A stretch of 64,000 bases of DNA. Source: Kitasatospora albolonga. Its GTDB lineage: Bacteria > Actinomycetota > Actinomycetes > Streptomycetales > Streptomycetaceae. The notes under the pieces were generated by a model. That model made no database searches, was not told the origin of the DNA, and saw nothing but the letters and a program-made list of their open reading frames with translations. Where the stretch lies: contig CP020563.1 in NCBI GenBank assembly GCA_002082585.1, positions 1,234,001 through 1,298,000 of the forward strand, read 5' to 3'. Positions 26,224 through 46,901 of the stretch are shown one piece after another. Each line of letters opens with the position of its first letter. Within the stretch, counting starts at the first letter, position 1. A program made the translations under genes and the position numbers.

Positions 26224-27309
26224 TCAGCCGATCTCGGCCCCGTAGGCGGCGAGCGCCTCGGGGACCGGCTGGAAGAACGTTGTGCCGCCCGAGGAGCAGT
26301 TGCCGCTGCCGCCCGAGGTCAGACCGAGCGCGGTGTCGCCCGCGAAGAGGGCGCCGCCGCTGTCGCCCGGTTCGGCGCAGACCGTCGTCTGGATGAGGCC
26401 GTTGACGATGTCGCCATTGCCGTAGTTGACCGTGGCGTTCAGCGCGGTGACCTCACCCTCGTGCACCTGGGTGGTGGAGCCGCTGCGGACGACCGCCTGG
26501 CCGACCGTGGCGTCACCCGCCTGGGTGATCGCCTGGGTGGAGCCGTTGTAGAGGTTGACCTCGCTGGGGTGGGCGATGTCCGAGGTGTACTTGACCAGGC
26601 CGTAGTCGTTCTCCGGGAAGCTGGAGCCCTCGGTGGTGCCGATCGCCTGGCCGCCCTGGCTGTCCGACCAGCTGGCGACCGACTCGGTGCAGTGGCCCGC
26701 GGTCAGGAAGTACGGCTCGCCGTCCTTGACCACGTTGAAGCCGAGCGAACACCGGGAGCCGGAGCCGAAGATCGCGTCGCCGCCCGCGATGAGCGGCTTG
26801 AACTCGCCCTCGGTCTTCTTCAGTTCGGCCTTGCCGCCGAGCCCCTCGACCACGGCCGAGAGCTTCTTCCAGGCCGCGCCGTCGACCGTGCTGTCGGCGG
26901 TGACCAGGACCTTGTTGCTGACCGGGTCGACGGCCCAGGAGGTGCCCGGGATCGTCGCCTTGTCCGTGAGGGTCTGCCGGGCCGACGTCAGCTCGGCGAG
27001 GGAGTGCTCCACGACTCTGGCCTTGCCGCCCGCCTGGCGGACCTGCTCGGCGGCGGCCTCGTCGACGACGTTCACGACGAGGGCCTTGGCCGTGCTGTCG
27101 TAGTACGAGCCGGCCGCGTCCGCGCCCAGGTCCCGGTCGAGCGTGGTGGCGAGCTTTCCGGCCGCGTCCGCACTGAGCGTCTTGACCGTGAACTCCGGTA
27201 CGTCGTCACTGGCGTTCGCACTCTGGAACGTGAAACCCGCTACGACCAGGGCGACCACGGCCGATCCGGCCACCGTCGCGCGCTTCCTGGATATGCGTCG
27301 ATGCTTCAA
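26224..27309 (-). CDS. sprD: Streptogrisin D-like secreted serine protease precursor
   Basis: A chymotrypsin-fold (S1) protease made as a pre-pro-protein. A TTG start at 27309 is chosen because AGGAGG lies 6 bases before it; the signal peptide [14 protein letters not shown]... ends ANA. The alpha-lytic-type pro-region spans about residues 33-173. The mature enzyme would start [14 protein letters not shown], 188 aa. The triad is visible in [14 protein letters not shown] and PGDSGGALF, with paired cysteines in [10 protein letters not shown]. The frame stays open to 27432, and I recall that the S. griseus SGPD entry includes similar residues upstream, so a longer N-terminus is possible. Confidence 0.93.
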
Positions 27310-27763
27310 CTTCGACCTCCTGTGGGGCCGTGCACGGAGCAAGTGGGGTGCCCGTACACGGAGGATGGGGCGCCCACTATTCCGAGGGGGCCGGTAGCAC
27401 ACAAGGTCGACTTCGAGACGTGCACACGACACCGACGCTTCACCCGCGCCATGTTCACTTACCCGCGGTCATGCCACGTCGGTCCCGTTCGCGAACACCC
27501 GCTGCAACGACGGGCGGCCCCTGGGTGAGGACTAGTCCTGTCCGGTATTCGCCCCTGCCGGTCCGGATGTCGTCCCCGCCCGTCCGGATGGAGCCGGAAA
27601 TCGTCCGCCACGAGCGCCTCGGGACCTCCGCCTTTCCCGCCGTCACAGCTCCTGCCGCCGAGGAGTCCCCCGTAACGCCCCTGATGGGTCATCATCGAAA
27701 CGGCAGCACACGCCGGGCACACCGTGCCCGGGCCGGCCGGGGTACCGAGCTGAGGAGGCGCGG
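27310..27763. other. Divergent intergenic region, sprD-like / alpha-beta hydrolase
   Basis: 454 bases without a convincing gene. It holds the perfect 12-bp palindrome AGGACTAGTCCT at 27528-27539 and a GGTCATGCCA at 27467-27476. On the minus strand the latter reads TGGCATGACC, an 8 of 10 match to the AdpA consensus. No clear -35/-10 pair was identified for either gene. Confidence 0.5.
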
Positions 27764-28675
27764 GTGCGCGATCGGGTGCGCGTGGCGGACGGGCGGCATC
27801 TGATGGTGGAGCAGCTGGGGGACCCCCGGGGCAGACCGGTGTTCCTGCTCCACGGGACACCGGGCAGCAGGCTGGGGCCCGCTCCCCGGGGCATGGTCCT
27901 GTACCAGCGCCGTACCCAGCTGATCACCTACGACCGCCCGGGGTACGGCGGCAGCGACCGGCACGAGGGCCGCCGGGTCCGGGACGTCGTCGAGGACGTC
28001 CGGGCGATCGCCGACTCGCTGGGCCTGGAGCGGTTCGCCGTCGTGGGCCGCTCCGGCGGGGCCCCGCACGCGCTGGCGTGCGCGGCGCTGATGCCCGAAC
28101 GGGTCACCCGGACCGCCACCCTGGTGGGCCTCGCGCCCCGGGACGCGGCCGGTCTCGACTGGTTCGAGGGGATGGCCGCCTCCAACGTGCTCGCGTACTC
28201 GACGGCCACCGCCGACCCGGACGGGCTGGCCGCGTCCTTCATCACCCGCTCCGCACAGATCCGGCAGGACCCGGGCAGGCTGCTGGAGGATCTGCGCCGG
28301 GAGCTGACGGACTCGGACCGGGTGGTGGTCAACGACGTGGGAATCCGGTCCATGCTGCTGCGCAACTACCGCGAGGGGCTGCGCACTTCGGCGTACGGCT
28401 GGATCGACGACGCCATCGCGTTCTGCAGCCCGTGGGGCTTCGAACCGGCCGGGATCACCGGCCGGGTGATGATCTGGCACGGTGAGAAGGACGTGTTCAC
28501 CCCGGTCGGCCACTCCCGCTGGCTGGCCGGTCAGATCCCCGGCGCCACCGCCGTACTGGAACCGGCGGCGGCCCACTTCGACGCGCTGTCCGTGCTCCCC
28601 GGCATCCTCACCTGGCTGCTGGACGACCGGGACCAGCCGGACCTGCCGGTGACGGCCGCCGCCCCCGGCGGCTGA
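27764..28675 (+). CDS. Alpha/beta hydrolase
   Basis: A 303-aa cytoplasmic alpha/beta-fold hydrolase without a signal peptide. The oxyanion region is FLLHGTPGSRLG. The nucleophile elbow is VVGRSGGAPHAL, with Ser in GRSGG. The acid is likely in HGEKDVFTPVGH and the catalytic His in AAHFDAL. The GTG start follows GAGGAGG. It converges with fxsT and appears unrelated to it. Substrate unknown; haloperoxidase or esterase relatives share the pattern. Confidence 0.88.
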   Translation: MRDRVRVADGRHLMVEQLGDPRGRPVFLLHGTPGSRLGPAPRGMVLYQRRTQLITYDRPGYGGSDRHEGRRVRDVVEDVRAIADSLGLERFAVVGRSGGAPHALACAALMPERVTRTATLVGLAPRDAAGLDWFEGMAASNVLAYSTATADPDGLAASFITRSAQIRQDPGRLLEDLRRELTDSDRVVVNDVGIRSMLLRNYREGLRTSAYGWIDDAIAFCSPWGFEPAGITGRVMIWHGEKDVFTPVGHSRWLAGQIPGATAVLEPAAAHFDALSVLPGILTWLLDDRDQPDLPVTAAAPGG

Positions 28676-28736: not shown

Positions 28737-31700
28737 TCACACCGACATCGGCTCCAGCTCGCGCCGGAACCGCATGTCCGTCCGCGCTATCCGGGTCAGC
28801 GGATGGTCGTCGCCGAGCTGCCGCGACAGTTCCACGACGATCTCCGACCGCAGGTGCGCCGCCTCCTCCTCGCGCCCCATCGCATCGAGCGTGACCGCCA
28901 TGTTCGAGGTCATGGCCAGGGTCTCCGGGTGGTGCGCGCCGAGCGCCCCGCGGAGCTGGACGGTGAGCTTCTGCTCGGTCTCCAGCACGATGTCCAGGTC
29001 CCCCCGGTCCGCCGTGGCGTTGGCCAGGTTCATCACACAGAAGAGGGTGTTCGGGTGCTCGCGGCCGAACGCCTCCCGCATCGAGGCGACCACCAGCGTG
29101 AGCAGCCGCTCCGCCTCCTCCGGCTGCCCGGTCCCGGTCAGGTAGATGGCGAGGTTGTTCTGCGCAGCCAGGGTGTACGGGTGCTTCTCCCCCGGCACCT
29201 TCCGGTACTGGTCGACCACCTCCTGCGCCGTGTTCCTCGCCTCGACGGTCTCGCCCGCCGCGAACAGGTCGGCGGCCAGATTGAGGTCGCAGGCCAGCGA
29301 ATCGGGGTTGGCGGTGGTGTACTTCGCCCGGTACCGGGCCCGGGTCGCCACCGTCAGCCTGCGGGCGTCCTCCAGCCGCCCGGCCCTGCGCAGCGACACC
29401 GCGAGGCTCTTCGCGGCGCTCAGCGTGGCGGGGAAGCTGCGGCCCATGGTCCGCTTGAAGCTCTCGTAGGCGCGGCTCAGCAGGGTCACGGAGTCCTCGT
29501 ACCGCCCGACCTCGCGCAGGTCGCGGGCGAGGTTCATGGCGGAGGACAGGCTGTTCGGGTGCTCCGGGCCGAGCACCTGGGAGCGCAGGTCGTAGACGTC
29601 CTGGTCGATCTCGCGGGCCCGGGCGTACTGGCCGACACTGCGCAGGTTCAGCGCCAGGTTGTTGGCGGCGGCCAGGGTCCTGGGGTGGGAGTCGTGGAAG
29701 ATCTGGCTGAAGCCCTCGTGGGCCTCGGTCGCCATCTCGATCGCCGTGCCGTAGTCGCCGAGCAGACCGAGGTCGATGGCCAGGCCGCTGGTGGTCATGT
29801 ACGTGTGCGGGTGCTCGGGGCCGAGCACCTCCCGCTGGAGCCGGAGGGTCAGCTCGTCGAGCTCCTTGGCCTCCACGTACCGCCCGCGGGTACGCAGGAT
29901 GTTGGAGAGGTGGAAGCAGAGGTAGAGGTACTGGAGGTCCCGCTCTCCCAGCTTCTCCAGCCAGACCTCCCGCAGGTCGTTGCCGAGCGTCCCCGCCGTT
30001 CTGACGTCCCCGCGCTTCCACAGGTAGCGCACCCGGTCGATGAGCAGCCTGCGGACCTCCGGCTCCTTGCAGTGCCGGGCCTCGGACGGGCCGAGGTGCG
30101 GCCAGATCGTGGCGAAGCGCGGCCAGGTCTCCGGGTTGTCGATCGGTTCGTCGCCGTCGGGCCGGGCCCCGGCCAGAATGCTGTGGACGACGTGCCGGGC
30201 CTCGCGCTGCTCCTCCTCGCTGAGCTGCGCCTTGATCACGGCCTGGACGAGGCGGTGCACCTGGATGGAGTTGGAGACCTGGTCGACCTTGGCGAGGGCG
30301 AAGCGGCCGATCTCGCGGATGACCCGGCCCAGCACCAGCTTCTCCTGGAGGGAGGGGTCGTACGGCTTCAGCGCCTCGATCATCTCCTTGCTGTACAGGA
30401 GGTTGGCGGAGATCGGTTCGGGGGCGAAGAAGGCGCAGAGCTGGAGCAGCCGGACCGCCGCCGGTGAGCGCTCCTCCAGCCGGGCGATGGAGACGTTCCA
30501 GGTGGCGGCGACCGGCTCCGGGTAGCCCGGGGGCTGGTTGAGGGCGAGGACCTGGGGCGCCTGCCGGGAGAGCTGGTCGAGGTAGGTGCCGATGGGGGGC
30601 GCGGTCTCCGCGATCCAGGCCGCCGCCTGCTCGACGGCGAGCGGCAGGTCGCCCACGGCGGTGGCCACCTGGCCCGCCTCGTCGATGCTGAGCCCCGGGG
30701 CCCGGCGCCGGAGGTGCTCGATGGACTCCTCCCTCAGGAAGACGTCGACGGGCAGCGCGTCCCCGTGCTGGGACCAGCTCTGGTTGCGGGAGGTCACCAG
30801 GATGTGGCCGGAGCCGCCCTGCGGGAAGTAGCGGCGCAGCTGTTCGGGGTCGTCCGCGTTGTCGAAGACCAGCAGCCAGCGGTCCGAGGGCACACCGCGC
30901 CGGAGCAGGTCGACGGCCTCCTTCGAGGCGGCCGCCATGTCGTCGCCGCCCTGGGCGCCGAGCCGGACGGCGAGTTCGGCGAGGGAGGCGACCACGTCGT
31001 CGGCCTGCTCGGACGATATCCACCAGACCAGGTCGTAGTCGGCCATGAAGCGGTGCACGTACTCCAGGGCGACCTGGGTCTTGCCGACGCCCCCGAGCCC
31101 GTACAGCGCCTGGGGCTGCGGCAGGACCACGGCCATGCCGCCGCCGAGCTGGTCGCGCATCCGCTCCAGGACGAGCGAGCGGCCGGTGAAGCCGGGGTTG
31201 CGGGGCGGGGCGTTCCAGATCCTGGGGACCGTGCCGGGGAAGCGGGGCCCGGGCGAGACCCCGTCGGTGATCTGCACCGGCCGGTCCAGGGCCCGCATCA
31301 GGGCGGCGGTGGCGTGCACCTCGTCGAGCCGGAAGAGGTCGACCGGGTTGCGGTCGATGTACGGGGCGGTCAGGCGTACGTCCCCGACCCGCAGCGGCAG
31401 CAGCAGGCGTCGGCCGCCGCCCGGGTCCTCGGCGACCGCCCGCTCCCAGACGTCCACGGCGCGCTGCGACTTGAGGTACGCGGCGGAGAGCAGCACCACC
31501 GTGCGGGCGGCGTTCTCCGGGGTGGGTGCCGTCTCCTGCGGGGGCCGTTCGGCGGAGACGTCACGGGGGACGACGCGGAAGCCGGCCCGGGTGAGGACCG
31601 ATTCGATCCAGTCGGCCCACATCCGGTTCTCCGCCACATAGCTGAGGGAGAGGTCGGCGGGCAGGGCCGGCCTGCGCCGGGTGAAGGCGTCCCGGATGCG

Positions 31701-32669
31701 CAGGCGCACCTCGTCGCCGACCGGGGGCATCGAGGTGATCTCCTGGCCGGTGATGACCGCGGTGAGCCGTTCGAAGGCGGAGAGGAGGGAGTTGGTGAGC
31801 CCGGACTCGTCGCCGAAGGTGGCCAGCGTCTCCTCGTAGGCGTAGTAGGGGCGGTAGGGGATCTCCACCGCGCCCCAGTAGGCGGTGAGTTCGTCGCCGG
31901 ACAGATCGCGGGGCAGCCGGTCGAACTTGAGCCGGGCCAGCGCCCGTCCGGCGTCCGCCTTCTCCTTCTCGCCCTCGTCGATGCGCATCGGGACGGGGAA
32001 GATGGAGATGGGGCGGCCGGTGTAGCGCTCGGCGATCTGGCGGGCGACGGAGGCGGCGCCGTCGATGGACTGGTCGCTGAGGGTGAAGCAGTCGACGAGG
32101 ATGTCGGGGAGGTGGACGGTGCAGATGTCGGCGATGTCGCTGAGGCCGGTCCGGCTGTCGATGAGGACGTAGTCGTAGTTGGCCTTCATGTCCTCGCGCA
32201 GCGCGTCGAAGAAGTGGCCGCCGCCGAGCCGGTCGTAGAAGTTGTCCCAGTCGAAGGTGGAGACGGTCGCGGAGTACTCGCGGTTCTGCCGTCCGGCGGA
32301 GACGAAGTCGAGGGTGCCGCCGCGCGGGAACTCCCAGCCGAGCGCCTCCGGGGTCAGCGAGACGGCGTGCGGCTGGATGCGGGCGTAGTCGCGGTGCCAG
32401 TCCTCCGCGCGTTCGGCGGGGCTGGTCGCGGCCCAGGCGTACTCGGTGATCAGGTCGATCACACCGGTGGTGGCGCCGAGGGTGGCGGGTTCGAGGAAGG
32501 GGTGGAAGAACCGGTGGAGTCCGGGCGCCTCCAGGTCCCAGTCGACGGCCAGGACCCGTTTCCCGTTGGCCGCGAGAATCCAGGCGGTGTTGGCGAGGGC
32601 CATGGTGCGTCCCGTACCGCCCTTGTACGAGTAGAAGGTGACGATGCGCCCGTCACGACCGGCCGTCAT
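28737..32669 (-). CDS. fxsT: FxSxx-COOH system protein FxsT: ParA + TIR-like + NB-ARC + TPR
   Basis: 1310 aa. A ParA/MinD-type P-loop domain (about 1-310) has the deviant Walker motif YSYKGGTGRT. A TIR-like domain (about 340-470) starts LSYVAENRMWADWIESVL and ends LLLPLRVGD. An NB-ARC STAND ATPase follows with Walker A LYGLGGVGKTQVA (near 523) and Walker B RWLLVFDNADD. From about 860 to the end come many tetratricopeptide repeats (LGPEHPHT, LGPEHPNS, GEKHPYT at repeat boundaries). The ATG overlaps the fxsC stop as ATGA, so the two are coupled. The family accompanies FxS peptide maturation genes. Its action is unknown; the build resembles STAND signalling or conflict proteins. Confidence 0.93.
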   Translation of the reverse strand: MTAGRDGRIVTFYSYKGGTGRTMALANTAWILAANGKRVLAVDWDLEAPGLHRFFHPFLEPATLGATTGVIDLITEYAWAATSPAERAEDWHRDYARIQPHAVSLTPEALGWEFPRGGTLDFVSAGRQNREYSATVSTFDWDNFYDRLGGGHFFDALREDMKANYDYVLIDSRTGLSDIADICTVHLPDILVDCFTLSDQSIDGAASVARQIAERYTGRPISIFPVPMRIDEGEKEKADAGRALARLKFDRLPRDLSGDELTAYWGAVEIPYRPYYAYEETLATFGDESGLTNSLLSAFERLTAVITGQEITSMPPVGDEVRLRIRDAFTRRRPALPADLSLSYVAENRMWADWIESVLTRAGFRVVPRDVSAERPPQETAPTPENAARTVVLLSAAYLKSQRAVDVWERAVAEDPGGGRRLLLPLRVGDVRLTAPYIDRNPVDLFRLDEVHATAALMRALDRPVQITDGVSPGPRFPGTVPRIWNAPPRNPGFTGRSLVLERMRDQLGGGMAVVLPQPQALYGLGGVGKTQVALEYVHRFMADYDLVWWISSEQADDVVASLAELAVRLGAQGGDDMAAASKEAVDLLRRGVPSDRWLLVFDNADDPEQLRRYFPQGGSGHILVTSRNQSWSQHGDALPVDVFLREESIEHLRRRAPGLSIDEAGQVATAVGDLPLAVEQAAAWIAETAPPIGTYLDQLSRQAPQVLALNQPPGYPEPVAATWNVSIARLEERSPAAVRLLQLCAFFAPEPISANLLYSKEMIEALKPYDPSLQEKLVLGRVIREIGRFALAKVDQVSNSIQVHRLVQAVIKAQLSEEEQREARHVVHSILAGARPDGDEPIDNPETWPRFATIWPHLGPSEARHCKEPEVRRLLIDRVRYLWKRGDVRTAGTLGNDLREVWLEKLGERDLQYLYLCFHLSNILRTRGRYVEAKELDELTLRLQREVLGPEHPHTYMTTSGLAIDLGLLGDYGTAIEMATEAHEGFSQIFHDSHPRTLAAANNLALNLRSVGQYARAREIDQDVYDLRSQVLGPEHPNSLSSAMNLARDLREVGRYEDSVTLLSRAYESFKRTMGRSFPATLSAAKSLAVSLRRAGRLEDARRLTVATRARYRAKYTTANPDSLACDLNLAADLFAAGETVEARNTAQEVVDQYRKVPGEKHPYTLAAQNNLAIYLTGTGQPEEAERLLTLVVASMREAFGREHPNTLFCVMNLANATADRGDLDIVLETEQKLTVQLRGALGAHHPETLAMTSNMAVTLDAMGREEEAAHLRSEIVVELSRQLGDDHPLTRIARTDMRFRRELEPMSV

Positions 32670-33982
32670 AGGTCCTCCGCTTCCGTCGCAGGGTCGTGCG
32701 GGTCGGGGGTGAAGCTGGTGTCGCCCATGGGGCCCGTCAGCCGGGTCCGTTCGCCGTGCCCTCCGCCGGGGCCCGGCGGATAGGCCGTCGCGTGTCTCAG
32801 GTACTGCTGGGCCGCCACCTCGACGACCTGGGGCAGGATCTGGCCGAACGCCTCCATCGTGGGCACTCCTCTGGCCGCGGCCCGGCAGAAGGTCCGTCCG
32901 TGGCGCATCTTGGCAGGCATGGTCGCTTCGAGCTTCTCGGTGAGTTCGGCCTCCGCCGCCCGGCTCTGGTGGTCCTCGCGGCTCCACGGGACGACCATGG
33001 TCACCCAGGGCCGGTTCTCCGCGTCGAAGGCGGCGAGCCTGCGCCTGCGGTCCTCGTCCTGGAGGGCCCAGCGGTCGACGAGGAGGATCTCGGGGGTGCT
33101 GGGCGGCGCCTTGCCCTCGGTCCGCCCCGATTCCTCGTCGAACGAGGTGATCCGGGCCTGGTAGTTGAGCGAGCGCACGAGCTCCTCGGCCACATAGGCG
33201 AGGGGGCGGGCGGCGGCCGGGTGGTAGGGGTTCCAGTCCTGCGGGTGGTCGCCGTAGTAGTCGCCGATGCGGCCCTCGGGCAGGTCGTGGCGGGTGGGTG
33301 CGGCGATGGTGATCCGCATCGGGCGGGGGGCGCCGACCCCGCTGGTCGGGGAGCCGAAGGCGCTGGGGGCGAGACGGTAGTCGACGGGTCTGCCGGTGTC
33401 GATCCGGACCGTGTCGGCGACGCTGACGATGCGTTTGGCCAGTTCGTAGACGGCCCGTTCGTACTCCTGGGCGAAGAGTCTGAGCTTGATCAGACCGTAG
33501 AGGCCGTCGCTGACGTAGCGCTCCCCGAAGTCGCGGTGGTTGAACTGCAACCGCTCGGCCGATCCCGGGAGCTGGCTCGGCGGGACCGGGACCCAGAGGG
33601 CCGGGACGATCGCTTCGGCGGGCTGGTTGCGGCGGGCCCGGTGGTGGATGGCCCGCTGCTCGAAGGCGTGCCACTCCTTGCCGCACATCTCGCTGGCGAA
33701 GTAGCGCGGCGAGAACAGCGGGACGAAGACCCGGCAGGTGGCGAGGACTTCACCGAGCCGTTCCGACCAGCCCTCGCCGGAGCGTATCTCGCGGTCCATG
33801 AAGCCGGGGGACGCGCCCGCGGGGAGGTCGGTCATGGCCAGCACATGGCCGCACAGGTCCCGGAAGAGGCGTTCGACCCACATGTCGGGGTCCGTTCCGC
33901 TGCCGTGCCCGGGCGTGTGGGCGTAGCTCAGAAAGAAGTACGGCCGATGGTCCGCCGCTCGCTGCTGCGTCGATGCGTGCAC
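32666..33982 (-). CDS. fxsC: TIR-like protein FxsC
   Basis: 438 aa. The N-terminal TIR-like domain begins RPYFFLSYAHTPG and includes DREIRSGEGWSERLGEVLATC in parts and FVPLFSPRYFASEMCGKEWHAF. The Glu after CGK falls where active TIR NADases keep their catalytic Glu. The C-terminal half (about 230-410) is the FxsC-specific region (MRITIAAPTRHDLPEGR, GDYYGDHPQDWNPYHP, TPEILLVDRWALQDE). GTG at 33982 with GGGGG before it is preferred over a GTG ten codons upstream. A gap of 132 bases to fxsB leaves room for its own promoter. It ends in an ATGA overlap with fxsT. Confidence 0.92.
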   Translation of the reverse strand: MHASTQQRAADHRPYFFLSYAHTPGHGSGTDPDMWVERLFRDLCGHVLAMTDLPAGASPGFMDREIRSGEGWSERLGEVLATCRVFVPLFSPRYFASEMCGKEWHAFEQRAIHHRARRNQPAEAIVPALWVPVPPSQLPGSAERLQFNHRDFGERYVSDGLYGLIKLRLFAQEYERAVYELAKRIVSVADTVRIDTGRPVDYRLAPSAFGSPTSGVGAPRPMRITIAAPTRHDLPEGRIGDYYGDHPQDWNPYHPAAARPLAYVAEELVRSLNYQARITSFDEESGRTEGKAPPSTPEILLVDRWALQDEDRRRRLAAFDAENRPWVTMVVPWSREDHQSRAAEAELTEKLEATMPAKMRHGRTFCRAAARGVPTMEAFGQILPQVVEVAAQQYLRHATAYPPGPGGGHGERTRLTGPMGDTSFTPDPHDPATEAEDL

Positions 33983-34114
33983 ACGACCCCCGTCCTGTGT
34001 GAGCACTCGCACCCGAGGATGAGGAAAGGAATGCGAGCGAATTCATCATTCCGGAGCGGACCGCGCTCCACCCCCCTGCCGTTCGGTCATTGAACCTCGC
34101 TTTCCGGTCAACCG

Positions 34115-36409
34115 TCAGGGTGTTCGACACATGACCCGGGTGACCGGAAGGGCCTTGCCACCATTCCTCCCGGATGTCCCCTGTGGGTCACCGGCCTCTT
34201 TGCGGAGGGCGGCGATCAGTTGTTTTCCGTCGATGGTCGGCTCGGCCGCCGTTTCGATCATGTCGAGGGCTTCGGGTACGCCGTCGAGGAAGCGCGGTTC
34301 GAACAGGCCGAGCCCCACACGTTCGAATGTGTCGGCGAGCAGCCGGGAGAACGGAACGGGCTCGTCGTACCAGGGCGTCCGATGTTCCCAGGAACCGTCC
34401 GACGCGTAAAGATCCGTCACTTCGGTCAGCGCCCGCAATTTCGCCCGGCGGAATCCGCTCAGCAGTCCGAGCGCCAGTTCCCGCGCGTCCCCCGTCACCG
34501 CGAGCCCGGCCCCGCCGTACCCGTGGCGCCCCGGCCCGGCCGGGGCGCGCGGGAGCGGGGTCAGCGTGGTCAGCGTCCCGGCCGCCTCGGCGCACTGGCC
34601 GGCGACGGTCCCCTCCAGCAGGGCCCAGGCCGCACCGATCCGCGCCGCCCAGGCACCGGCCTCCGCCGGGCCGAGCCGCCCGGCCGGGGGGACGTCGAAG
34701 CAGTCCCGGTACGGATCGAGGTCGTCGAGGACGAAGGCGGGCACCGCCCCACCGGAACGCAGCGTCCGCACGGGCTGCCAGCGGGGACCGTCCGCCGCGC
34801 CGAGTTCGATGTGCAGTTCCCCGCCCGGGCCGGGCCCGTCCCGCCGGACCAGGAACCCCGTCCCGGTCGCCCGGACCACCGCCGTGCCCCGCTCGCCCGG
34901 TCCCGCGACCCGTACGGCCCCGAGCCCGGGCAGGAACAGGACGCCGTCCCGGTGGCCGACCGGGACGGGCAGATCGAGTCCGGCCCGTACGGCGGCGGCG
35001 GCCACCGTGGCGCCGAGCCGCTCCACCGGGAGCGCGGCCCGGCCTCCGGCCCGTACCGCACCGAGGGCGTCGAGCAGCCACGTACGCGTATAGGGGTGGG
35101 AGAGCACCGCGTCGAGCGCCGCCGCGCCCCCGGCGGTCCGCTCCACCTCCTCCGCCAGCTGCCAGGCCGCGTCCCAGAGGGCCCCGCCGCGTCCGTCGAG
35201 CTCGTGGTGGAGGTGGGCGAGCAGGGTGCGGGTCAGATCCAGCTGGGCCTCGACGAGTTCGGCCGGGACCCGGACGGCGGCCGATTCGGTGGCCGCTGCC
35301 GTACGGTCCTCGATGCCCCGGACCAGGGCGGCCAGGTCCGCGCAGTAGACCGAGGGGTTGTCGAAGCCGTTGGCGGAGCGGTAGCGGTGGGTGTACAGCC
35401 CGCCCCCGCACGAACGGACGACGGGGCACCGGCGACAGGTCTCGCTGACGCCCGCCAGACCGAGCTGGCGCGCGCGGACGCCGGGGTGGGCGGCGACCTC
35501 GTCGAAGGTGTGGGTGAAGACGTCGAACCCGGTGGCCGCGGCACCCTCGTACGCGCTCTTGAGGGAATCGGCCTGTTCGAGCCGGCCGTCGGTCTCGATC
35601 ACGACGAGGTCGGTGGGGGCCAGACCGAGCGATTCGGTGAGGCTGGGGCCGCCGCCGAGGCTGGAGAGCACCGAGGAGAAGAGCCGCACCGGCACCGGGC
35701 GGCCCTGCTCGGTCCAGCGGTCGAAGACCGTCAGCAGCCAGTCGGCGTACGCCGTCGCGGAGCCGTCCGGGCGCTGGGGCGGTGTGTCCCAGGTGGCGTG
35801 CGGGAGCAGGAAGTCGACCATCGGCGGGGCGAGTCCGGCGAGGGCCTCGTAGACCGCGACCGGGTCGTTGCGGATGTCGACCGTGCAGAGCAGACCGAGG
35901 TCGAGGTGGCGGTAGCGCTCCTGGCGCAGGAGCTCCACGGCGCGCAGGACGAGCGGGTGGCTGGTGCGCCCGTCGGCGAAGCGGCGGTGCCGGTCGTTGG
36001 CCGCGCGGTCGCCGTCCAGCGAGATGCCGACCTTGACGCCGAACTCGGCGAACAGGTCGAGGTAACGGGGGCTGAGCTGGACGCCGTTGGTGTGGATGCG
36101 CAGGTCCAGCTCGGCGACGCCGTCCAGCGCCGAGCCGAGTTCCTCGCAGACCCGTCGCAGCCGCGCGGGGCCCGCCAGGAGCGGTTCCCCGCCGTGCAGG
36201 ATCACCGCCACGGAGGGAAGCGCATGCGTGGCCGCATGCTCGGCCAGGCGTCGGGCGGTCCAGGAGACGGCCTCGTCGGAGATGGTCTTCGGGCGGGTCC
36301 GCCAGCTCTGGTCCGCGTGTTCGTAGACATAACAATGATCACATGCCAGATCGCACCTGCTGTGAACCTTGAGGACGAATTCACGGAAGGGGACCAGAGG
36401 TCCTGTCAT
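34115..36409 (-). CDS. fxsB: Radical SAM/SPASM peptide maturase FxsB with C-terminal HExxH-type domain (motif lost)
   Basis: 764 aa. The radical SAM cluster motif C-x3-C-x2-C is at Cys19, 23 and 26 (RCDLACDHCYVYEH). HGGEPLLAG and SLDGDRAANDRHRR follow in the barrel. SPASM cysteines for an auxiliary cluster are in ETCRRCPVVRSCGGG and VYCADL (about 345-395). FxsB enzymes make the three-residue cyclophane linking Phe and Ser in the precursor FxS tail. The C-terminal half resembles the HExxH domain often fused to this family, but at the expected site (about 651) the sequence is SGFRRAKLRAL, so the metal motif is absent. It starts 31 bases after fxsA. Confidence 0.93.
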   Translation of the reverse strand: MTGPLVPFREFVLKVHSRCDLACDHCYVYEHADQSWRTRPKTISDEAVSWTARRLAEHAATHALPSVAVILHGGEPLLAGPARLRRVCEELGSALDGVAELDLRIHTNGVQLSPRYLDLFAEFGVKVGISLDGDRAANDRHRRFADGRTSHPLVLRAVELLRQERYRHLDLGLLCTVDIRNDPVAVYEALAGLAPPMVDFLLPHATWDTPPQRPDGSATAYADWLLTVFDRWTEQGRPVPVRLFSSVLSSLGGGPSLTESLGLAPTDLVVIETDGRLEQADSLKSAYEGAAATGFDVFTHTFDEVAAHPGVRARQLGLAGVSETCRRCPVVRSCGGGLYTHRYRSANGFDNPSVYCADLAALVRGIEDRTAAATESAAVRVPAELVEAQLDLTRTLLAHLHHELDGRGGALWDAAWQLAEEVERTAGGAAALDAVLSHPYTRTWLLDALGAVRAGGRAALPVERLGATVAAAAVRAGLDLPVPVGHRDGVLFLPGLGAVRVAGPGERGTAVVRATGTGFLVRRDGPGPGGELHIELGAADGPRWQPVRTLRSGGAVPAFVLDDLDPYRDCFDVPPAGRLGPAEAGAWAARIGAAWALLEGTVAGQCAEAAGTLTTLTPLPRAPAGPGRHGYGGAGLAVTGDARELALGLLSGFRRAKLRALTEVTDLYASDGSWEHRTPWYDEPVPFSRLLADTFERVGLGLFEPRFLDGVPEALDMIETAAEPTIDGKQLIAALRKEAGDPQGTSGRNGGKALPVTRVMCRTP

Positions 36410-36440
36410 TCCGCCATTCTAGTCATCCTCGAGGTCCGGA

Positions 36441-36605
36441 TCAGAGGGCCGAACTGAAGGTGGAGGTCCGGAGGGAACGGCCGGTCGACGCACCGAATAC
36501 ACGGTCGATCTTCCTGGCCGCTTCGGCGCTGCGGGCGTCCGTTGCGGCAAGGGTGGTGCGGGGCTTCGCGGGGGCGAAGTCGGGGGTGGTTCCGTAGGTC
36601 TTCAC
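36441..36605 (-). CDS. fxsA: FxSxx-COOH RiPP precursor peptide FxsA
   Basis: A 54-aa open frame directly upstream of fxsB, starting GTG with GAGGA 7 bases before it. It reads (M)KTYGTTPDFAPAKPRTTLA and ends RSLRTSTFSSAL followed by TGA. The last five residues, F-S-S-A-L, match the family-defining F-x-S-x-x-COOH tail that FxsB modifies. The leader is basic and helical in its middle (ARSAEAARKIDRVF), as expected for recognition by the maturase. I found it by reading the strand by hand; its size means gene finders may miss it. No other copy was seen. Confidence 0.9.
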   Translation of the reverse strand: MKTYGTTPDFAPAKPRTTLAATDARSAEAARKIDRVFGASTGRSLRTSTFSSAL

Positions 36606-36635
36606 GGCCGTCCTCGGGGATTTTTTGATGGTCTG

Positions 36636-36687
36636 TTTCCGGACAGAGAAATGCTGCCGGTTTCTGCATATGTGCAGAGTCCGGAAA
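36636..36687. promoter_or_regulatory. Composite inverted repeat upstream of fxsA
   Basis: Outer arms TTTCCGGAC (36636-36644) and GTCCGGAAA (36679-36687) enclose a second dyad TCTGCA-TATG-TGCAGA (36663-36678). The element begins 31 bases before the fxsA start codon. It may be a protein operator or a structured leader; no ligand is evident. Confidence 0.5.
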
Positions 36688-36774: not shown

Positions 36775-37518
36775 TCACCCGGCCGGGTGAGACCCGTCCC
36801 GGACATCGGAGGGGTCGTCCGGAGGCAGTGCCGCGCGCGATCCGCGCACGCAGTCCAGGACCCGTTCGTGGCTGTCGCCCACGACGTCCGTGACCCGCAC
36901 CCGTATGTGCAGCGCGTCGATCTCCTCGACGAAGCGCCGCGAGAACGCCCCGGCCAGCACGGTCTCGTAGCCCGCGGTGCCGGTCAGCGGGAACCCCCGC
37001 CCGAAGGCGACGAGTTCGAAGTCCTTTCCGGAGCGGAGCCCGTGGGCCGTGAGCGTGGCGACGGCCTCGGAGAGGTCGGTCCAGGGCGCGGCCTCCGCGT
37101 CGGTGCCGCCCCGGCGCACCACCTGGAAGTCCCAGCTCTCGACCACGGCGATGTGCTGGCCGCCGTTCAGCACCCCCACCCGCCAGACGGGTGCGTCCCC
37201 CGCGAGGAGACCCGTGGTCCAGGCGCCGCGCCACCCCAGATAGGGCCGGACCGTGCGGGCGTACTGCGCCCTCGCCAGTACGGCACCGGCCGCGACGGCC
37301 AGCAGGCTGCCGAGCGCCTCCACGTCCAGCAGTTGCAGCCGCCACGGCCAGACCTCCCGGGCGCCGGGGGACACGTTGGCCCGGACGGTCTCCCAGAGCA
37401 GGACGAGGATCAGCACGGCCAGCAGCGCCAGCGGGGCGGTGAAGAGCAACGGGCTGCGGCGCACCCTGCGCTGGCTGTCCGCGAGCGGCCGGCCGCCCTC
37501 CCCGCCCGTACCGTTCAC
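36775..37518 (-). CDS. Small membrane protein of unknown function between fxs and SLATT genes
   Basis: 247 aa. A cytosolic basic N-terminus is followed by two membrane helices (LLFTAPLALLAVLILVLLW and LLAVAAGAVLARAQYA region). A soluble domain of about 150 residues follows (WRVGVLNGGQHIAVVESW, DFELVAFGRGFPLTGTAGYE, IRVRVTDVVGDSHERVLDC in parts). The GTG start follows GGGGAGGGG. It reads in the same direction as fxsA, 169 bases upstream, and is divergent from the SLATT gene. I do not recognise the family; the position suggests a part in one of the two flanking systems. Confidence 0.7.
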   Translation of the reverse strand: MNGTGGEGGRPLADSQRRVRRSPLLFTAPLALLAVLILVLLWETVRANVSPGAREVWPWRLQLLDVEALGSLLAVAAGAVLARAQYARTVRPYLGWRGAWTTGLLAGDAPVWRVGVLNGGQHIAVVESWDFQVVRRGGTDAEAAPWTDLSEAVATLTAHGLRSGKDFELVAFGRGFPLTGTAGYETVLAGAFSRRFVEEIDALHIRVRVTDVVGDSHERVLDCVRGSRAALPPDDPSDVRDGSHPAG

Positions 37519-37807
37519 TTCGGTGTCCCCTCCCCCGCCGCGAGCCGTTCCCGCTCCATCACTCGGACACTCGGAGCGACAACTCGCGGGTCTGAACGTT
37601 CAATTGGGAAACCTTCTCATACGTCCGGCCCGGCCCGAAGACCTTCGGGGCAGGTGGCCGAAGTCCGCCCTCGCGGGCCCGCGCGGCCCGGCGGCGCCCT
37701 TGCCGCCCCCGGGCCCCGGACCTACTCTCGTTGCCCCGGACGGGGGCGGGGCGGGGCGGCCGTGGACACGGCCGGGGTCCCACCGACAACAGCAGACGGG
37801 GGTGACC

Positions 37808-38737
37808 ATGACGGCGCTGCCTGGGCCGCTGAGATCCATGGTCTTCAGGAACGAGGACCTTCCGGCACTGTTCCACCACACGGACGCGATAGCCGTAGCC
37901 CGGCAGCGCGAGGCCGTGAACACCACGCGCGGGCAGCTGGCCCTGCTCGTCGTGAGCGCGGTGCCCGCCGCTCTGCCGTGGCAGATCAAGGCCGGTGAGT
38001 CGGTCCATCTCCTGTACGCCCTGGCCGGGCTGGGATATCTGGGCGTGCTGTTCACGACGTTCCTGGCCTCCCGCCGCAAGGCCGCGTCCCACTGGCAGCT
38101 GAACCGTTCGGCGGCGGAGTTCATCAAGTCCAACTGCTGGCGCTACGCCGTGCACGGCTCACCGTTCGACACCTCCGCCCACCATCCCGAGGCGCTCTTC
38201 GCCAACCGGCTGGAGGAGGGTCTCCAGGAGCTCCGGAAAGTGGGCTGGGCCGACCCCCGCGAGGAGCTGGCGGACGCCGGGGACGGCCTCATCACGGAGT
38301 CCATGCGGGAGTTGCGGGGCAAGGCGTACACCGTCCGCAAGGAGACCTATGTACGGGACCGGCTGATCGAGCAGCGCCGCTGGTACCGCAGGCGTCGGCT
38401 GGGCTCCCGGCGCGGGGCGCTCCTCTGGTCGGGTGCCGTCGTCGCCCTGACGCTCCCGGCGCTCGCACTCAGCGCGCTCCAGACCTTCGGGGTGGGGCAG
38501 TCCTTCGGGCTGACGGGGGTACTGTCCGCCGCCGCGGCGGCCTGCCTCGCCTGGCACGAGATGCGCCGCCACCAGCCGCTGGTCTCGGCGCACTCGCTGG
38601 TGGAGGAGGATCTGGAGTCGATGCAGGCCGCGATGGAGACCACACTCACCGAACGGCAGTGGCCGGTCGCGGTCTTCGAGACCGAGCGGATCGTCTCACC
38701 GGAGCACACCGACTGGCTGGTGCGGCACCGGACCTGA
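37808..38737 (+). CDS. SLATT/DUF4231 domain membrane protein
   Basis: 309 aa with four hydrophobic segments in two pairs (about 45-65 and 68-88; about 205-225 and 232-250). The C-terminal part has the DUF4231 pattern: YVRDRLIEQRRWYRRRR before the helix pair and HEMRRHQPLVSAHSLVEEDLE after it. DUF4231 belongs to the SLATT superfamily, proposed 2-TM effectors associated with SMODS and SLOG genes in conflict systems. The ATG follows GGGGGTG. It converges on the SLOG gene 48 bases away, a typical partner. Confidence 0.82.
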   Translation: MTALPGPLRSMVFRNEDLPALFHHTDAIAVARQREAVNTTRGQLALLVVSAVPAALPWQIKAGESVHLLYALAGLGYLGVLFTTFLASRRKAASHWQLNRSAAEFIKSNCWRYAVHGSPFDTSAHHPEALFANRLEEGLQELRKVGWADPREELADAGDGLITESMRELRGKAYTVRKETYVRDRLIEQRRWYRRRRLGSRRGALLWSGAVVALTLPALALSALQTFGVGQSFGLTGVLSAAAAACLAWHEMRRHQPLVSAHSLVEEDLESMQAAMETTLTERQWPVAVFETERIVSPEHTDWLVRHRT

Positions 38738-38766: not shown

Positions 38767-38788
38767 TGACGGGCCTGACGCCCGGTCA
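38767..38788. terminator. Hairpin between SLATT and SLOG genes
   Basis: TGAC-GGGC and GCCC-g-GTCA pair with one bulged base around a 5-base loop. The element overlaps the stop codon of the SLOG gene. Confidence 0.45.
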
Positions 38789-39265
38789 GCCGCGCTCCAC
38801 CCCGTCCCGCCAGATGACGGTGACCGGCCGGCCCAGCGCACGGGCGTACGTCACGATGTCGCCGGTGCCGCCGAGGCCCCGGGCCGGGCAGCCGTCCCAG
38901 ACGGCCAGCAGCAGGTCGCAGTGGTCGGCGATGTACGCGCCGGCGGCATAGTACGCCTCATCGGTGGAATGCGGGAAGCCGAGCCGGACCTCCTGGGCCG
39001 CACGGGACTTGAGCAGCCGGTAGCGGGCCAGGTCGGCGGTGTCCTCGAAGCACGCCTCGTAGTCGCCGCTGGGGATCACCACCGTCAGCTCGGCCCCGCA
39101 GTCGAGGGCGAGACCGGCGAAGAGCTGGTCCGCGCCGACCGCCAGGCTGGAGAGCGCCTCGGTGGCGCCGTCCAGGCCGCACAGGGCGGACCGCAGTCCG
39201 GCGAGCACATGGGCCCGCGCCCCGGCGGGGATGGAGCGGTGACCGGTGATCCCGATGCGATTCAC
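38786..39265 (-). CDS. SLOG family (LOG/DprA-like Rossmannoid) sensor protein
   Basis: 159 aa from the GTG at 39265. A Rossmannoid fold begins RIGITGHRSIPAGARAHV. The SLOG features SLAVGADQLFAGLALDCGAE and VVIPSGDYEACF and a late glycine loop LGGTGDIVTYARALG follow. SLOG proteins bind or process nucleotide-derived ligands such as NAD or ADP-ribose derivatives. It lies tail to tail with a SLATT membrane protein, as in described SLOG-SLATT conflict modules. An upstream in-frame ATG at 39379 would add 38 residues of unlikely sequence. Confidence 0.8.
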   Translation of the reverse strand: MNRIGITGHRSIPAGARAHVLAGLRSALCGLDGATEALSSLAVGADQLFAGLALDCGAELTVVIPSGDYEACFEDTADLARYRLLKSRAAQEVRLGFPHSTDEAYYAAGAYIADHCDLLLAVWDGCPARGLGGTGDIVTYARALGRPVTVIWRDGVERG

Positions 39266-39437: not shown

Positions 39438-40613
<1,176 letters not shown>

Positions 40614-41442: not shown

Positions 41443-42735
41443 TCAACCTTTCCACACCGGCTCCGCCAGGCCGAGGTGCGACCGCAGCGTGGAGCCGGTG
41501 TACGCGGAGCGGAAAGCCCCGCTTTCCTGGAGGAGCGGGACGACCCGGTCGACGAAGTCGTCCAGGCCGCCGGGGGTGAGATGCGGTACGAGGATGAAGC
41601 CGTCGGCCGCCCGTTCGTCGACGAACGCGGTCAGCTCCGCCGCGACCGTCCGCGGCGAGCCGATGAAGGACTGCCGGGTGGTCGTCTCGATGACCGTCTG
41701 CCGCAGCGAGAGCCCCTTGGCCTCGGAGATCGCCCGCCACCGGGCGACGACGCCCACCGGGTCCCCGTGCAGGACCCGCCCCTTGACCAGGCCCGAGTCG
41801 AGGACCGGGTCGACCTCGGGGAGCGGGCCGTCGGGATCGTACGCGGAGAGGTCGCGGCCCCAGAGCTGCTCGGCGGCGAGGATCGCGTTCTGCGGCGAGA
41901 CCTGCTGGCGGCGGATCTCGTACGCGCGCTCCTGCGCCTCGGCGTCGGTGTCGCCGATCACCACGGTGACGCCGGGCATGATCTTGAGGTCGTCGGGCTG
42001 CCTCCCGTACGCGGCGAGCCGCGCCTTGACGTCGGCGTAGAAGGCGCGGCCCGCCTCCAGCGTGCCGTGCCGGGTGAAGATGATGTCGGCGGTGGAGGCG
42101 GCGAACTCACGGCCCTCGCTGGAGTCCCCGGCCTGGATGACCACCGGGTGGCCCTGCGGGGAGCGCGGCACGGTGAACTCGCCGGAGATCGTGAACTGTT
42201 CGCCCTCGTGCGCGAAGGGGCGGGAGCGCCCGTCGGGTGTCCAGGAGTCCCACAGCTCCCGGGCGGTGGCGACGAACTCGGCGGCCCGGGTGTAGCGGTC
42301 GGCTCGGTCCAGGTAGCCGCCCCGGCGGAAGTTCTCCCCGGTGAAGGCGTCGGAGGAGGTCACCACGTTCCAGGCGGCGCGCCCTCCGCTGAGGTGGTCG
42401 AGGGTGGCGAGGCGGCGGGCCAGCTCGTAGGGCTCGTTGAAGGTGGCGTTGACGGTGGCGGCGAGGCCGAGCCGTTCGGTGACGGCGGCCAGCGCGTTCA
42501 GGACGGTCAGGGACTCGGGGCGGCCGACCACGTCGAGGTCGTGGACGCGGCCGTTGTGCTCGCGCAGCCGCAGCCCCTCGGCGAGGAAGAAGAAGTCGAA
42601 CTTCCCGCGCTCCGCCGTCCTGGCCAGATGCTCGAAGGAGGAGAACTCGATCTGGCTGCGGGAGCGGGGGTCGGCCCACACGGTGGTGGCGTTGACGCCC
42701 GGGAAGTGCGCGGCCAGATGCATGGTGCGGCCCAC
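41443..42735 (-). CDS. LLM-class FMN-dependent monooxygenase (NtaA/SnaA/DszA family)
   Basis: A 430-aa bacterial luciferase-like monooxygenase that uses FMNH2 from a separate reductase. Family markers are WNVVTSSDAFTGENFRRGG, DRYTRAAEFVATARELWDSW in parts, and HPVVIQAGDSSEGREFA. GTG at 42735 follows AAGGAGG. It lies 2 bases behind a second LLM gene and ahead of DUF1684. Relatives in Bacillus (YtnJ, YxeK) oxidise S-substituted cysteine derivatives, and others attack sulfonates or aminocarboxylates. With amino-acid ABC genes in the same run, an organosulfur substrate is likely but unproven. Confidence 0.92.
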   Translation of the reverse strand: MGRTMHLAAHFPGVNATTVWADPRSRSQIEFSSFEHLARTAERGKFDFFFLAEGLRLREHNGRVHDLDVVGRPESLTVLNALAAVTERLGLAATVNATFNEPYELARRLATLDHLSGGRAAWNVVTSSDAFTGENFRRGGYLDRADRYTRAAEFVATARELWDSWTPDGRSRPFAHEGEQFTISGEFTVPRSPQGHPVVIQAGDSSEGREFAASTADIIFTRHGTLEAGRAFYADVKARLAAYGRQPDDLKIMPGVTVVIGDTDAEAQERAYEIRRQQVSPQNAILAAEQLWGRDLSAYDPDGPLPEVDPVLDSGLVKGRVLHGDPVGVVARWRAISEAKGLSLRQTVIETTTRQSFIGSPRTVAAELTAFVDERAADGFILVPHLTPGGLDDFVDRVVPLLQESGAFRSAYTGSTLRSHLGLAEPVWKG

Positions 42736-42737
42736 GG

Positions 42738-43823
42738 TCAGACCTCCTTCGACGAAGCCGACGCGGCCCTGGCGGTCGCGTAGCGGCTGGCGGGGCGGAC
42801 GAGCCCCAGGTGTTCGCGCAGGGTTCCGCCCGGATAGAAGGTGCGGAAGAGGCTGCGGTGCTGGAGCAGGGCCACGGTGCCGTTGACGATCCTTTCGAGG
42901 TCGCGCTCCGGGGTGATGGGCGTGAGGTGGAAGCCGTCCACCGCGCCCGCCCGGTGCCACTGGGCGATGAGGTCGGCGAGGTCGACGGGGCCGCCCCGGA
43001 AGTAGGTGCCCCGTCCGGCGAGCTGGGGTCCGCTCTCCAGTCCGGGTTCCGGTGCGCTCTCGACGTCCCCGAGGTCGACCGTGAGCGCGACCAGGACCCG
43101 CAGCGCGTCGGGGTCGCGCCCGTGGGCGGCGGCCTTGGTGCGCAGCTCGTCCCGGAGGGCGGCGGCCTGTTCGGGGGTGGTGGCCCGGATGTGGATGACG
43201 TCGGCGTGCCGGGCGGCGGCCTCCCGGGACGGGACGCCGATCGCGTCGATGACGGTGACGGGCCTCCCCTGGGGCGGGCGCGGCACGATGGCGGGGCCCT
43301 TCACCGTGAAGGTGGAGCCCTCGAAGTCGACGTAGTGCAGCTTGTCCCGGTCGATGAAGCGGCCGGTCGCGGTGTCCCTGATCTCCGCGTCGTCCTCCCA
43401 GCTGTCCCAGAGCCGTGCGGAGACGTCGGCCACCTCCCCGGCCTCCTGCCACAGCTCGGCGGGCGGGGCCGCGAGGCGTCTGCCGAAGAGGCGGGCCTCC
43501 GCCTCGGTGGTGGAGACCTCGGCGTGCCACCCGGCCCGGCCCTTGCTGACCCAGTCCAGGGAGGCGACGGCCGAGGAGACGTGGAAGGGCTCGGTGTGGG
43601 TGGTGGTGACGGTCGGGACGAGGCCGATGCGGTCGGTGGCGGGCGCGATACGGGCGAGGACCGCGAGCGCGTCGAGCCCCGGGCGGGCGAAGGAGTCGCC
43701 GAGGGTGACGAAGTCGAGGGCGCCGCCTTCGGCGAGCCGGGCGAGCCGGAGGTAGTGCCCGGCGTCGTAGTGCGGCGGGCCGCCGATCTCGGCGGCCAGG
43801 TGGAGGGGGGTACGGGCGGACAT
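42738..43823 (-). CDS. LLM-class flavin-dependent oxidoreductase
   Basis: A 361-aa luciferase-like oxidoreductase, distinct from its neighbour. It starts LHLAAEIGGPPHYDAGHYLR and has FVTLGDSFARPGLDALAVLA, KGRAGWHAEVSTTEAEARLFG in parts, and PQGRPVTVIDAIGVPSREAAA. An insertion near residues 258-283 is acidic. ATG at 43823 with AGAGGT before it. Two LLM enzymes in tandem are common in operons that process S-alkyl amino acids. The reductase that supplies FMNH2 is not seen nearby. Confidence 0.9.
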   Translation of the reverse strand: MSARTPLHLAAEIGGPPHYDAGHYLRLARLAEGGALDFVTLGDSFARPGLDALAVLARIAPATDRIGLVPTVTTTHTEPFHVSSAVASLDWVSKGRAGWHAEVSTTEAEARLFGRRLAAPPAELWQEAGEVADVSARLWDSWEDDAEIRDTATGRFIDRDKLHYVDFEGSTFTVKGPAIVPRPPQGRPVTVIDAIGVPSREAAARHADVIHIRATTPEQAAALRDELRTKAAAHGRDPDALRVLVALTVDLGDVESAPEPGLESGPQLAGRGTYFRGGPVDLADLIAQWHRAGAVDGFHLTPITPERDLERIVNGTVALLQHRSLFRTFYPGGTLREHLGLVRPASRYATARAASASSKEV

Positions 43824-43861
43824 GACGGGACCTCTCGGGTCGGCGGTCGGGCGGAGGGCTG

Positions 43862-44108
43862 GGGCCTCTCGTCCGGATCGGGCCGGGGCACGCGGGCCCG
43901 GCCCGATCCGGGCGAGAGGCCCTGCGGCCTGTCCGGCCGTTCCCGTCGCCGTCCGCAGGGCGGCCGTGAGACAGACGGGAACGGCCGGACAGGCCCTCGC
44001 ACCGGGGTGTCCGGCGGACCGGCGCCGGACACCCCTCACGGTCATCGGCGGTGCGGGGCCCGTGGCGGACCTGGCGGGCCCCGCGGGACCGGAGCGTGCC
44101 GGTCCCGC
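43862..44108. other. Array of five consecutive inverted repeats
   Basis: Between the receptor gene and the LLM genes five hairpins follow each other: 43862-43887/43897-43922 (26 bp, one mismatch), 43926-43947/43974-43995 (22 bp perfect), 44004-44016/44023-44035 (13 bp), 44053-44062/44075-44084 (10 bp) and 44083-44092/44099-44108 (10 bp, sharing two bases with the fourth). No coding frame is supported. The array probably ends or damps transcription after the transporter genes. Confidence 0.85.
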
Positions 44109-44122
44109 GGGGCCCCACCGGG

Positions 44123-45097: not shown

Positions 45098-45146
45098 GTA
45101 CGTACTCCTTGTGGGTGGTGCGGATGGGCGGGATATGAAGGACGGT

Positions 45147-46846: not shown

Positions 46847-46901
46847 GGCGGGGTTCCTTGGGAGCGGTGGCGGCGGTGGTACGGAGGTGGGTGCGGCGGG
46901 C

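Follow-up and report, generated by a model that had tools for sequence, protein, structure and literature searches.

Based on comparative sequence analysis we found that an FxSxx-COOH (FxS) locus in a 64,000-nucleotide stretch of Kitasatospora albolonga (the window; positions 1,234,001-1,298,000 of CP020563.1, the genome being a single contig of 8.03 Mb) does not end with the genes fxsA, fxsB, fxsC and fxsT. Comparative data tie to it two upstream genes, encoding a SLATT protein and a SLOG-fold protein. We tentatively read this standalone system, of the subtype in which the maturase FxsB has an inactivated second domain (FxsBH-lost), as an intracellular, abortive-infection-like conflict module with six functional genes (fxsA, fxsB, fxsC, fxsT, SLATT and SLOG), and give this reading somewhat less than an even chance. 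The gene set suggests an internal alarm system and not an antibiotic.

FxSxx-COOH or FxsABC-T systems were reportedly described by Haft and Basu in 2011. The kind of system is already known: NCBI has names for the proteins, and standalone loci for FxSxx peptide processing, with a proposed toxin or signal role, are described in sections of PMC7159879 (Kaur et al., 2020). A first-pass annotation of 28737..36687 had reported a complete system of four genes on one strand and had called the function of the mature peptide unknown. The four genes were found in place, on the minus strand, but that annotation overlooked the inactivated beta-hydroxylase domain of FxsB, and its span ended before the two linked genes. 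Its remark on function holds for experiments, although the toxin or signal proposal of Kaur et al. is in print.

The genus sample comprised 121 genomes, from which 59 loci were fetched; FxsB was present in 50 of them, and leaving out one truncated locus (L047) gave 49. The named loci were the best 80 of 144 FxsC relatives, and those longer than 20 kb with FxsB present (n = 65) were termed complete. All 80 bear the organism name Streptomyces, once [Kitasatospora] papulosa, and the carriers include S. griseus, S. globisporus, S. anulatus and S. microflavus. The class-wide sample comprised 296 genomes and shared G000 and G056 with the genus sample.

The fxsABCT genes

The precursor gene fxsA (36441..36605, minus strand) encodes 54 amino acids from a GTG start and has the tail T-F-S-S-A-L, with F50-S51-S52-A53-L54 at 36444-36458. 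A ribosome-binding site, GAGGA (36611..36615, minus strand), is located 5 nucleotides 5' of the GTG, and 31 nucleotides separate the fxsA stop codon from the ATG of fxsB (36409); the tail, a ribosome site and this spacing had been annotated first. The search with the family model TIGR04268 of NCBIfam, which the annotation had suggested, gave a match to FxsA (26.3 bits, E 6.4e-6) that nevertheless fell slightly below the cut-off of 28, which could explain why the gene is omitted by model-based naming; when 6 of the 11 clade orthologues were scanned, five exceeded 28 bits and one reached 21.9. The frame expected at orthologous loci was kept in relatives. The stretch AGGACGGCCGTGAA, with the start codon and ribosome site, was invariant across the 12 loci of the window clade (window counted), insertions and deletions came in multiples of three, and the third codon position varied most (894, 833 and 1329 differences at positions 1, 2 and 3 over 3506 codon pairs). 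FxsA diverges fast in sequence and its tail is conserved, reading F-[SN]-S-[AS]-L throughout the clade (12/12). The gene was syntenic in 65/65 complete named loci, and 43 of the 49 genus loci have an F-x-S-x-x(-G) open reading frame (ORF) no more than 1 kb upstream of fxsB, whereas L064, L066, L076, L081, L084 and L091 have none within that distance. The ORF of L092 (FCSPP) looks like a chance match and was discounted as a precursor, which lowers the count to 42 of 49. Judged by frame and synteny, fxsA is a genuine precursor gene.

The maturase gene fxsB (34115..36409, minus strand) encodes a predicted radical SAM/SPASM cyclophane synthase of 764 amino acids with the cluster motif CDLACDHC. 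FxsB scored 606 bits with TIGR04269 (cut-off 370), and it matched the radical SAM domain of ChlB in PDB (9gm3, E 1.4e-74). The C-terminal domain, of the HExxH beta-hydroxylase type (residues 375-739; 34193..35287, minus strand), matched NF040587, the "inactivated beta-hydroxylase extension form", with 455.7 bits (cut-off 225) and the structure 22nu with E 6.1e-26. In the alignment SGFRR stands in place of HExxH in the window; the motif is intact in 4 of 44 long FxsB rows (L067, L068, L069 and L074), and seven short rows lack the second domain. By model and alignment the protein is FxsBH in its inactivated form, and an active alpha-ketoglutarate-dependent HExxH beta-hydroxylase was rejected because the motif is absent.

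We take IPR026335, the family of the triceptide enzyme MscB, to be FxsB, which would make the two enzymes members of one family. MscB forms a Phe-x-Ser cyclophane through a bond between C4 of Phe and Cbeta of Ser, according to passages of PMC11002830, and the Phe-x-Ser motif recurs in the window, where the cyclophane is predicted. The fused radical SAM and alpha-ketoglutarate-HExxH enzymes ChlB/ChlBH (9gm3, 22nu) have the same two-domain layout as the window's FxsB, which differs in having lost HExxH; the active form of this domain is an alpha-ketoglutarate-dependent beta-hydroxylase that was earlier annotated as a metallopeptidase (parts of PMC12636437).

Where a long FxsB has HExxH intact (L067, L068, L069 and L074), the precursor tails read F-Q-S-S-[VL]. 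At loci that have lost the motif the residue after Phe is mostly N, S or D, with Q still found in L070, L072, L073 and L085, and L202 has HEFLH together with the tail FDSAL. The Gln of the F-Q-S-S tails may mark a hydroxylated residue in what are few and related cases. The window's genome also encodes a second radical SAM protein at 874.9 kb (L002, L003), with a weak FxsB match of 73.8 bits.

The gene fxsC (32666..34012, minus strand; 448 amino acids as called, start codon uncertain) encodes a TIR (TIR_2) domain and a C-terminal Rossmann-like domain, and its product passed TIGR04276 (254 bits, cut-off 55) and NF040588 (238 bits, cut-off 130). Public records already name relatives FxsC. The catalytic-type Glu of the TIR domain, Glu113 (codon 33674-33676, minus strand), was conserved in 55 of 57 rows (Gln in L074 and L085) and in 43 of 43 rows, and the domain may be a catalytic one with NADase activity. 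FxsC relatives with no FxsB within the fetched stretch were seen at L077, L078, L079, L087, L090, L152 and L175; at L078 and L079 a neighbouring stretch shares the tetratricopeptide repeat (TPR) part of FxsT (about 30%), and these are perhaps VMAP-type systems.

For fxsT (28737..32669, minus strand; 1310 amino acids) the ParA-like (residues ~8-212), TIR-like (~342-450), NB-ARC (~521-635) and TPR regions of the first-pass annotation were recovered, whereas its start was not: the gene begins at ATG 32669, overlapping the fxsC stop codon, and the extra 339 upstream amino acids of the 1649-residue frame are fxsC read out of frame. With FxsT at 1042 bits for NF040586 (cut-off 300), FxsB, FxsC and FxsT all pass curated models, in line with the annotated family. 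No conserved Glu was found in the FxsT TIR. The ParA-like P-loop (KGGxGR) has Arg instead of Lys in 53 of 53 non-gap rows, and the Walker Lys of NB-ARC is kept in 50 of 52 such rows (Arg in two). The TPRs resemble kinesin light chain 2 (E 1e-20), and the ParA-like part matched the PADLOC candidate models PDC-M28B (79.5 and 47.4 bits). A second FxsT-like match occurs elsewhere in the same genome.

Linkage of the SLATT and SLOG genes

All components covered by the models of the FxSxx-COOH/FxsABC-T system (TIGR04268, TIGR04269, TIGR04276, NF040588 and NF040586), namely precursor tail, maturase, FxsC and FxsT, are present in the window; these models include neither SLATT nor SLOG, whereas the window locus has both. 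The SLATT gene (37802..38737, plus strand; alternative start ATG 37808) is divergent from fxsA and encodes a predicted membrane effector with two hydrophobic peaks, which matched PF18184 (SLATT_3; 125.7 bits, E 2.6e-36) and PF18181 (SLATT_1; 114.2 bits, E 4.8e-33), with a cut-off of 26.3, and scored 183 bits with NF033610. Convergent with it is a gene for a YpsA/DprA-like protein of 159 amino acids (38786..39265, minus strand) that gave no match in Pfam and no sequence match in PDB. Its AlphaFold2 model (pLDDT 93.8) matched YpsA (2nx2, E 1.3e-8), ShosA, DprA and LOG (E ≤4e-4) and, weakly, the SLOG domain of ThsA (7uxs, E 3.6e-3) in Foldseek, and the modelled fold is that of the SLOG superfamily. 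Some relatives are named DUF1273 or DNA recombination-mediator protein A.

Both genes were found at 64 of the 65 complete named loci, and L178 has neither. SLATT relatives were called close at an identity of at least 43% and remote at 37% or below. Close SLATT occurred in 34/121 genus genomes, at FxS loci in 33 of them. FxsBH-lost likewise passed its cut-off in 34/121, and a SLATT orthologue accompanied 32 of these 34 genomes compared with 2 of the other 87 (Fisher p 1.6e-24, uncorrected for kinship). G040 and G054 are the FxsBH-lost genomes without close SLATT, and G007 (L089) has a different FxS type with SLATT and SLOG adjoining. In the class-wide sample FxsBH-lost passed the cut-off in 7/296 genomes, confined to the window's genus; in all seven, SLATT lies no further than about 8 kb away, on the same contig, and close SLATT lies at FxS loci in 9/9 genomes. 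The remaining class genomes with SLATT of at least 43% identity are only G312 and G304, where the pair adjoins divergent FxS systems (L202 and L203). The FxsC proteins of L089, L202 and L203 are 28-33% identical to that of the window and their sites differ from it, with an alpha/beta hydrolase (ABH) or alpha-lytic-type protease (ALP) unmatched at these loci. Unlike the window, L202 has the order A-C-T-B-AAC-SLATT-SLOG; L203 shares the window's arrangement, A-B-C-T with a divergent SLATT followed by SLOG, and L089 is likewise A-B-C-T, SLATT and fxsA being separated by an AAC gene. Among 11 remote SLATT proteins five were fetched (L204-L208), and none of these stretches gave a match to FxsB or FxsC; a weak match to the NB-ARC part of FxsT lies 5-8 kb from the remote SLATT in L206 (E 3e-9) and L208 (E 6e-9). 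On these comparative data SLATT and SLOG are tied to FxS. At L050, L052-L058, L176-L178, L180 and L181 the block fxsABCT keeps its place between ABH and the SLATT side but runs in the opposite orientation.

The module is flanked by two proteases of similar sequence, ALP1 (39438..40514, minus strand, start uncertain) and ALP2 (26224..27432, minus strand), both found at empty sites and placed outside the system. ABH (27764..28675, plus strand) is convergent with fxsT and, as it also occurs at fxs-free sites, was treated as a flanking gene. At four empty sites (L098-L101) the gap from ABH to ALP1 is 143-752 nucleotides, with no match to fxsB, fxsC, fxsT, SLATT or SLOG; L098 has short remnants of ORF247, an optional gene of the locus. 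A deletion scar at L096 (G005, 1246500-1266000) still shows pieces of fxsT and SLOG along with a truncated match to ABH, and is bounded by proteases 91-92% identical to those of the window. Comparison of these sites indicates that relatives have lost the module entirely or in part.

That SLATT and SLOG are mere syntenic neighbours, without which the core FxS genes function, is in our view rather unlikely. Most loci occupy a single chromosomal site (ALP1 ... ABH ALP2), so the linkage can be inherited, and both FxS loci without the pair and a pair without fxs (L093) exist. However, close SLATT and SLOG relatives adjoin divergent FxS systems located away from this site (L089, L202 and L203), in a different order at L202, and both genes are gone at the empty sites L098-L101.

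Proposed circuit and its alternatives

The anatomy of the locus, the linkage, the conservation of catalytic and P-loop residues, the loss of HExxH and the loss of the module in relatives are firm, and we infer a mechanism, provisional in its order of events, as follows. FxsB is predicted to cross-link Phe50 and Ser52 near the free C-terminus of FxsA, as known for the family. Among the module genes we recognised neither a transporter nor a dedicated leader protease, for which reason we expect the modified tail to stay inside the cell. There the kinesin-light-chain-like TPRs of FxsT, a STAND ATPase, would bind it, and the peptide would set the on/off state of FxsT, acting either as activator or as guard. 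Activated FxsT, via its Glu-less TIR, would assemble and switch on the TIR of FxsC, which would cleave NAD+ to an ADP-ribose-type signal. Going by their families, the SLOG protein would bind or process this signal and SLATT would alter membrane permeability, so that the cell stops. SLATT proteins are predicted to be nucleotide-signal-responsive pores and occur in phage TIR-SLATT neighbourhoods (parts of PMC7159879 and PMC9503650).

In Thoeris, cyclic ADP-ribose isomers activate the SIR2-SLOG protein ThsA, as stated in part of PMC11204291. The window has in common with Thoeris a TIR with a catalytic-type Glu and a SLOG-fold partner, and differs in that the SLOG protein is separate, SLATT would be the effector, and peptide and STAND layers are added. 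Membership of Thoeris was rejected, as FxsC had no PADLOC match and the NCBIfam model Thoeris III ThcB4 gave E 0.097. A more specific reading, in full somewhat unlikely, takes the locus for a Thoeris-like immune circuit in which a peptide serves as the fuse: the intracellular cyclophane would be the ligand or guarded element of FxsT, and the FxsC signal would be read by SLOG and executed by SLATT. The ribosomally synthesised and post-translationally modified peptide (RiPP) would then be an internal immune switch and not a secreted product, which, if true, advises caution in mining such peptides as secreted antibiotics. The SLATT/SLOG link gives a plausible pathway end for the question of why a cyclophane RiPP accompanies TIR and STAND proteins, and brings that question within reach of experiments in ordinary Streptomyces.

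No published text linking SLATT or SLOG to FxS was found, figures, supplements and most subscription papers lying outside the scope of the search. The SLATT and SLOG passages of Kaur et al. that the search covered do not mention FxSxx, and section 24 lists a zincin peptidase and CRP-like regulators and no SLATT or SLOG (PMC7159879). Their standalone loci, as described there, share with the window the FxSxx precursor, the radical SAM-SPASM enzyme and an AP-ATPase with a ParA-like domain; in the window, by contrast, the HExxH domain is fused to FxsB, of hydroxylase type, with the motif lost. A VMAP-MoxR-vWA ternary system was also rejected, no VMAP, MoxR or vWA gene being found among the Pfam-scanned neighbours at 26-49 kb (a subset of ORFs).

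Several observations weigh against an intracellular conflict module. The Fisher test disregards shared descent, and L089 and L203 both keep A-B-C-T with a divergent SLATT, so these may reflect shared ancestry and not independent unions. FxS loci without the SLATT/SLOG pair exist (L059, L063, L069-L076 and L178), and L064 has SLATT with SLOG unmatched. In G057 the SLOG-SLATT pair stands alone at L093, as the module genes left there, with FxS elsewhere in the genome (L067); at L097 fxsT is the sole surviving module gene, and at L059 fxsA and fxsB are left, plus ORF247. ORF247 (36775..37518, minus strand), between SLATT and fxsA in 17 of the 80 named loci, encodes a membrane protein of unassigned role with two hydrophobic segments and no family match in NCBIfam and Pfam scans. 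ABH, invariably adjoining fxsT in complete loci (65/65), could be a peptidase; it scored 47.8 bits with the prolyl aminopeptidase model, far below the cut-off of 259.75. The structure of the FxsC N-terminal TIR is predicted with poor confidence, and PADLOC models gave no match to FxsC.

ORF247 and ABH leave some room for the peptide itself being a toxin or exported signal, as proposed in section 24 of Kaur et al. (PMC7159879), and a fast-diverging FxsA with a conserved tail would fit that role. We nevertheless consider it improbable, as the module has no recognised transporter or dedicated leader protease, the flanking secreted-type proteases also border empty sites, and FxsB's protease-like domain belongs to the hydroxylase type and has lost its motif. 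Still less do we favour a device for development or stress signalling in filamentous actinomycetes, in which the cyclophane peptide would report cell state to FxsT; this seems very unlikely. It would agree with the restriction of FxsBH-lost above the cut-off to the window's genus and with FxsC having no match to known-defence models, but the patchy distribution (34/121 genus genomes), the absence of whole loci and the scar suit a core developmental role poorly, and parts such as TIR, STAND and SLATT are characteristic of conflict systems, according to passages of PMC7159879.

Accessory gene and surroundings

An accessory AAC(3)-like gene, ACETYLTRANSFERASE, was present in 29/59 genus loci, in 25 of them between fxsB and fxsC; the L051 copy matched PF02522 with 238.8 bits. 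In the FxsB tree (51 rows) the window clade of 12 rows (SH-aLRT 98) is without AAC(3) and nests among carriers, and the gene was therefore probably lost in this clade; AAC(3) presence changes at least eight times on the tree. The window's genome has a single AAC(3)-family gene (L094, at about 734.5 kb), some 530 kb away from the locus, and its nearest copies are in the HExxH-intact FxS loci L067 and L068 (69 and 67% identity). Beyond ALP1, window positions 41443-49427 (minus strand) hold a luciferase-like monooxygenase, a solute-binding protein, ABC transporter parts and a FAD-NAD(P)-binding protein, which look like a transport-type cluster of their own.

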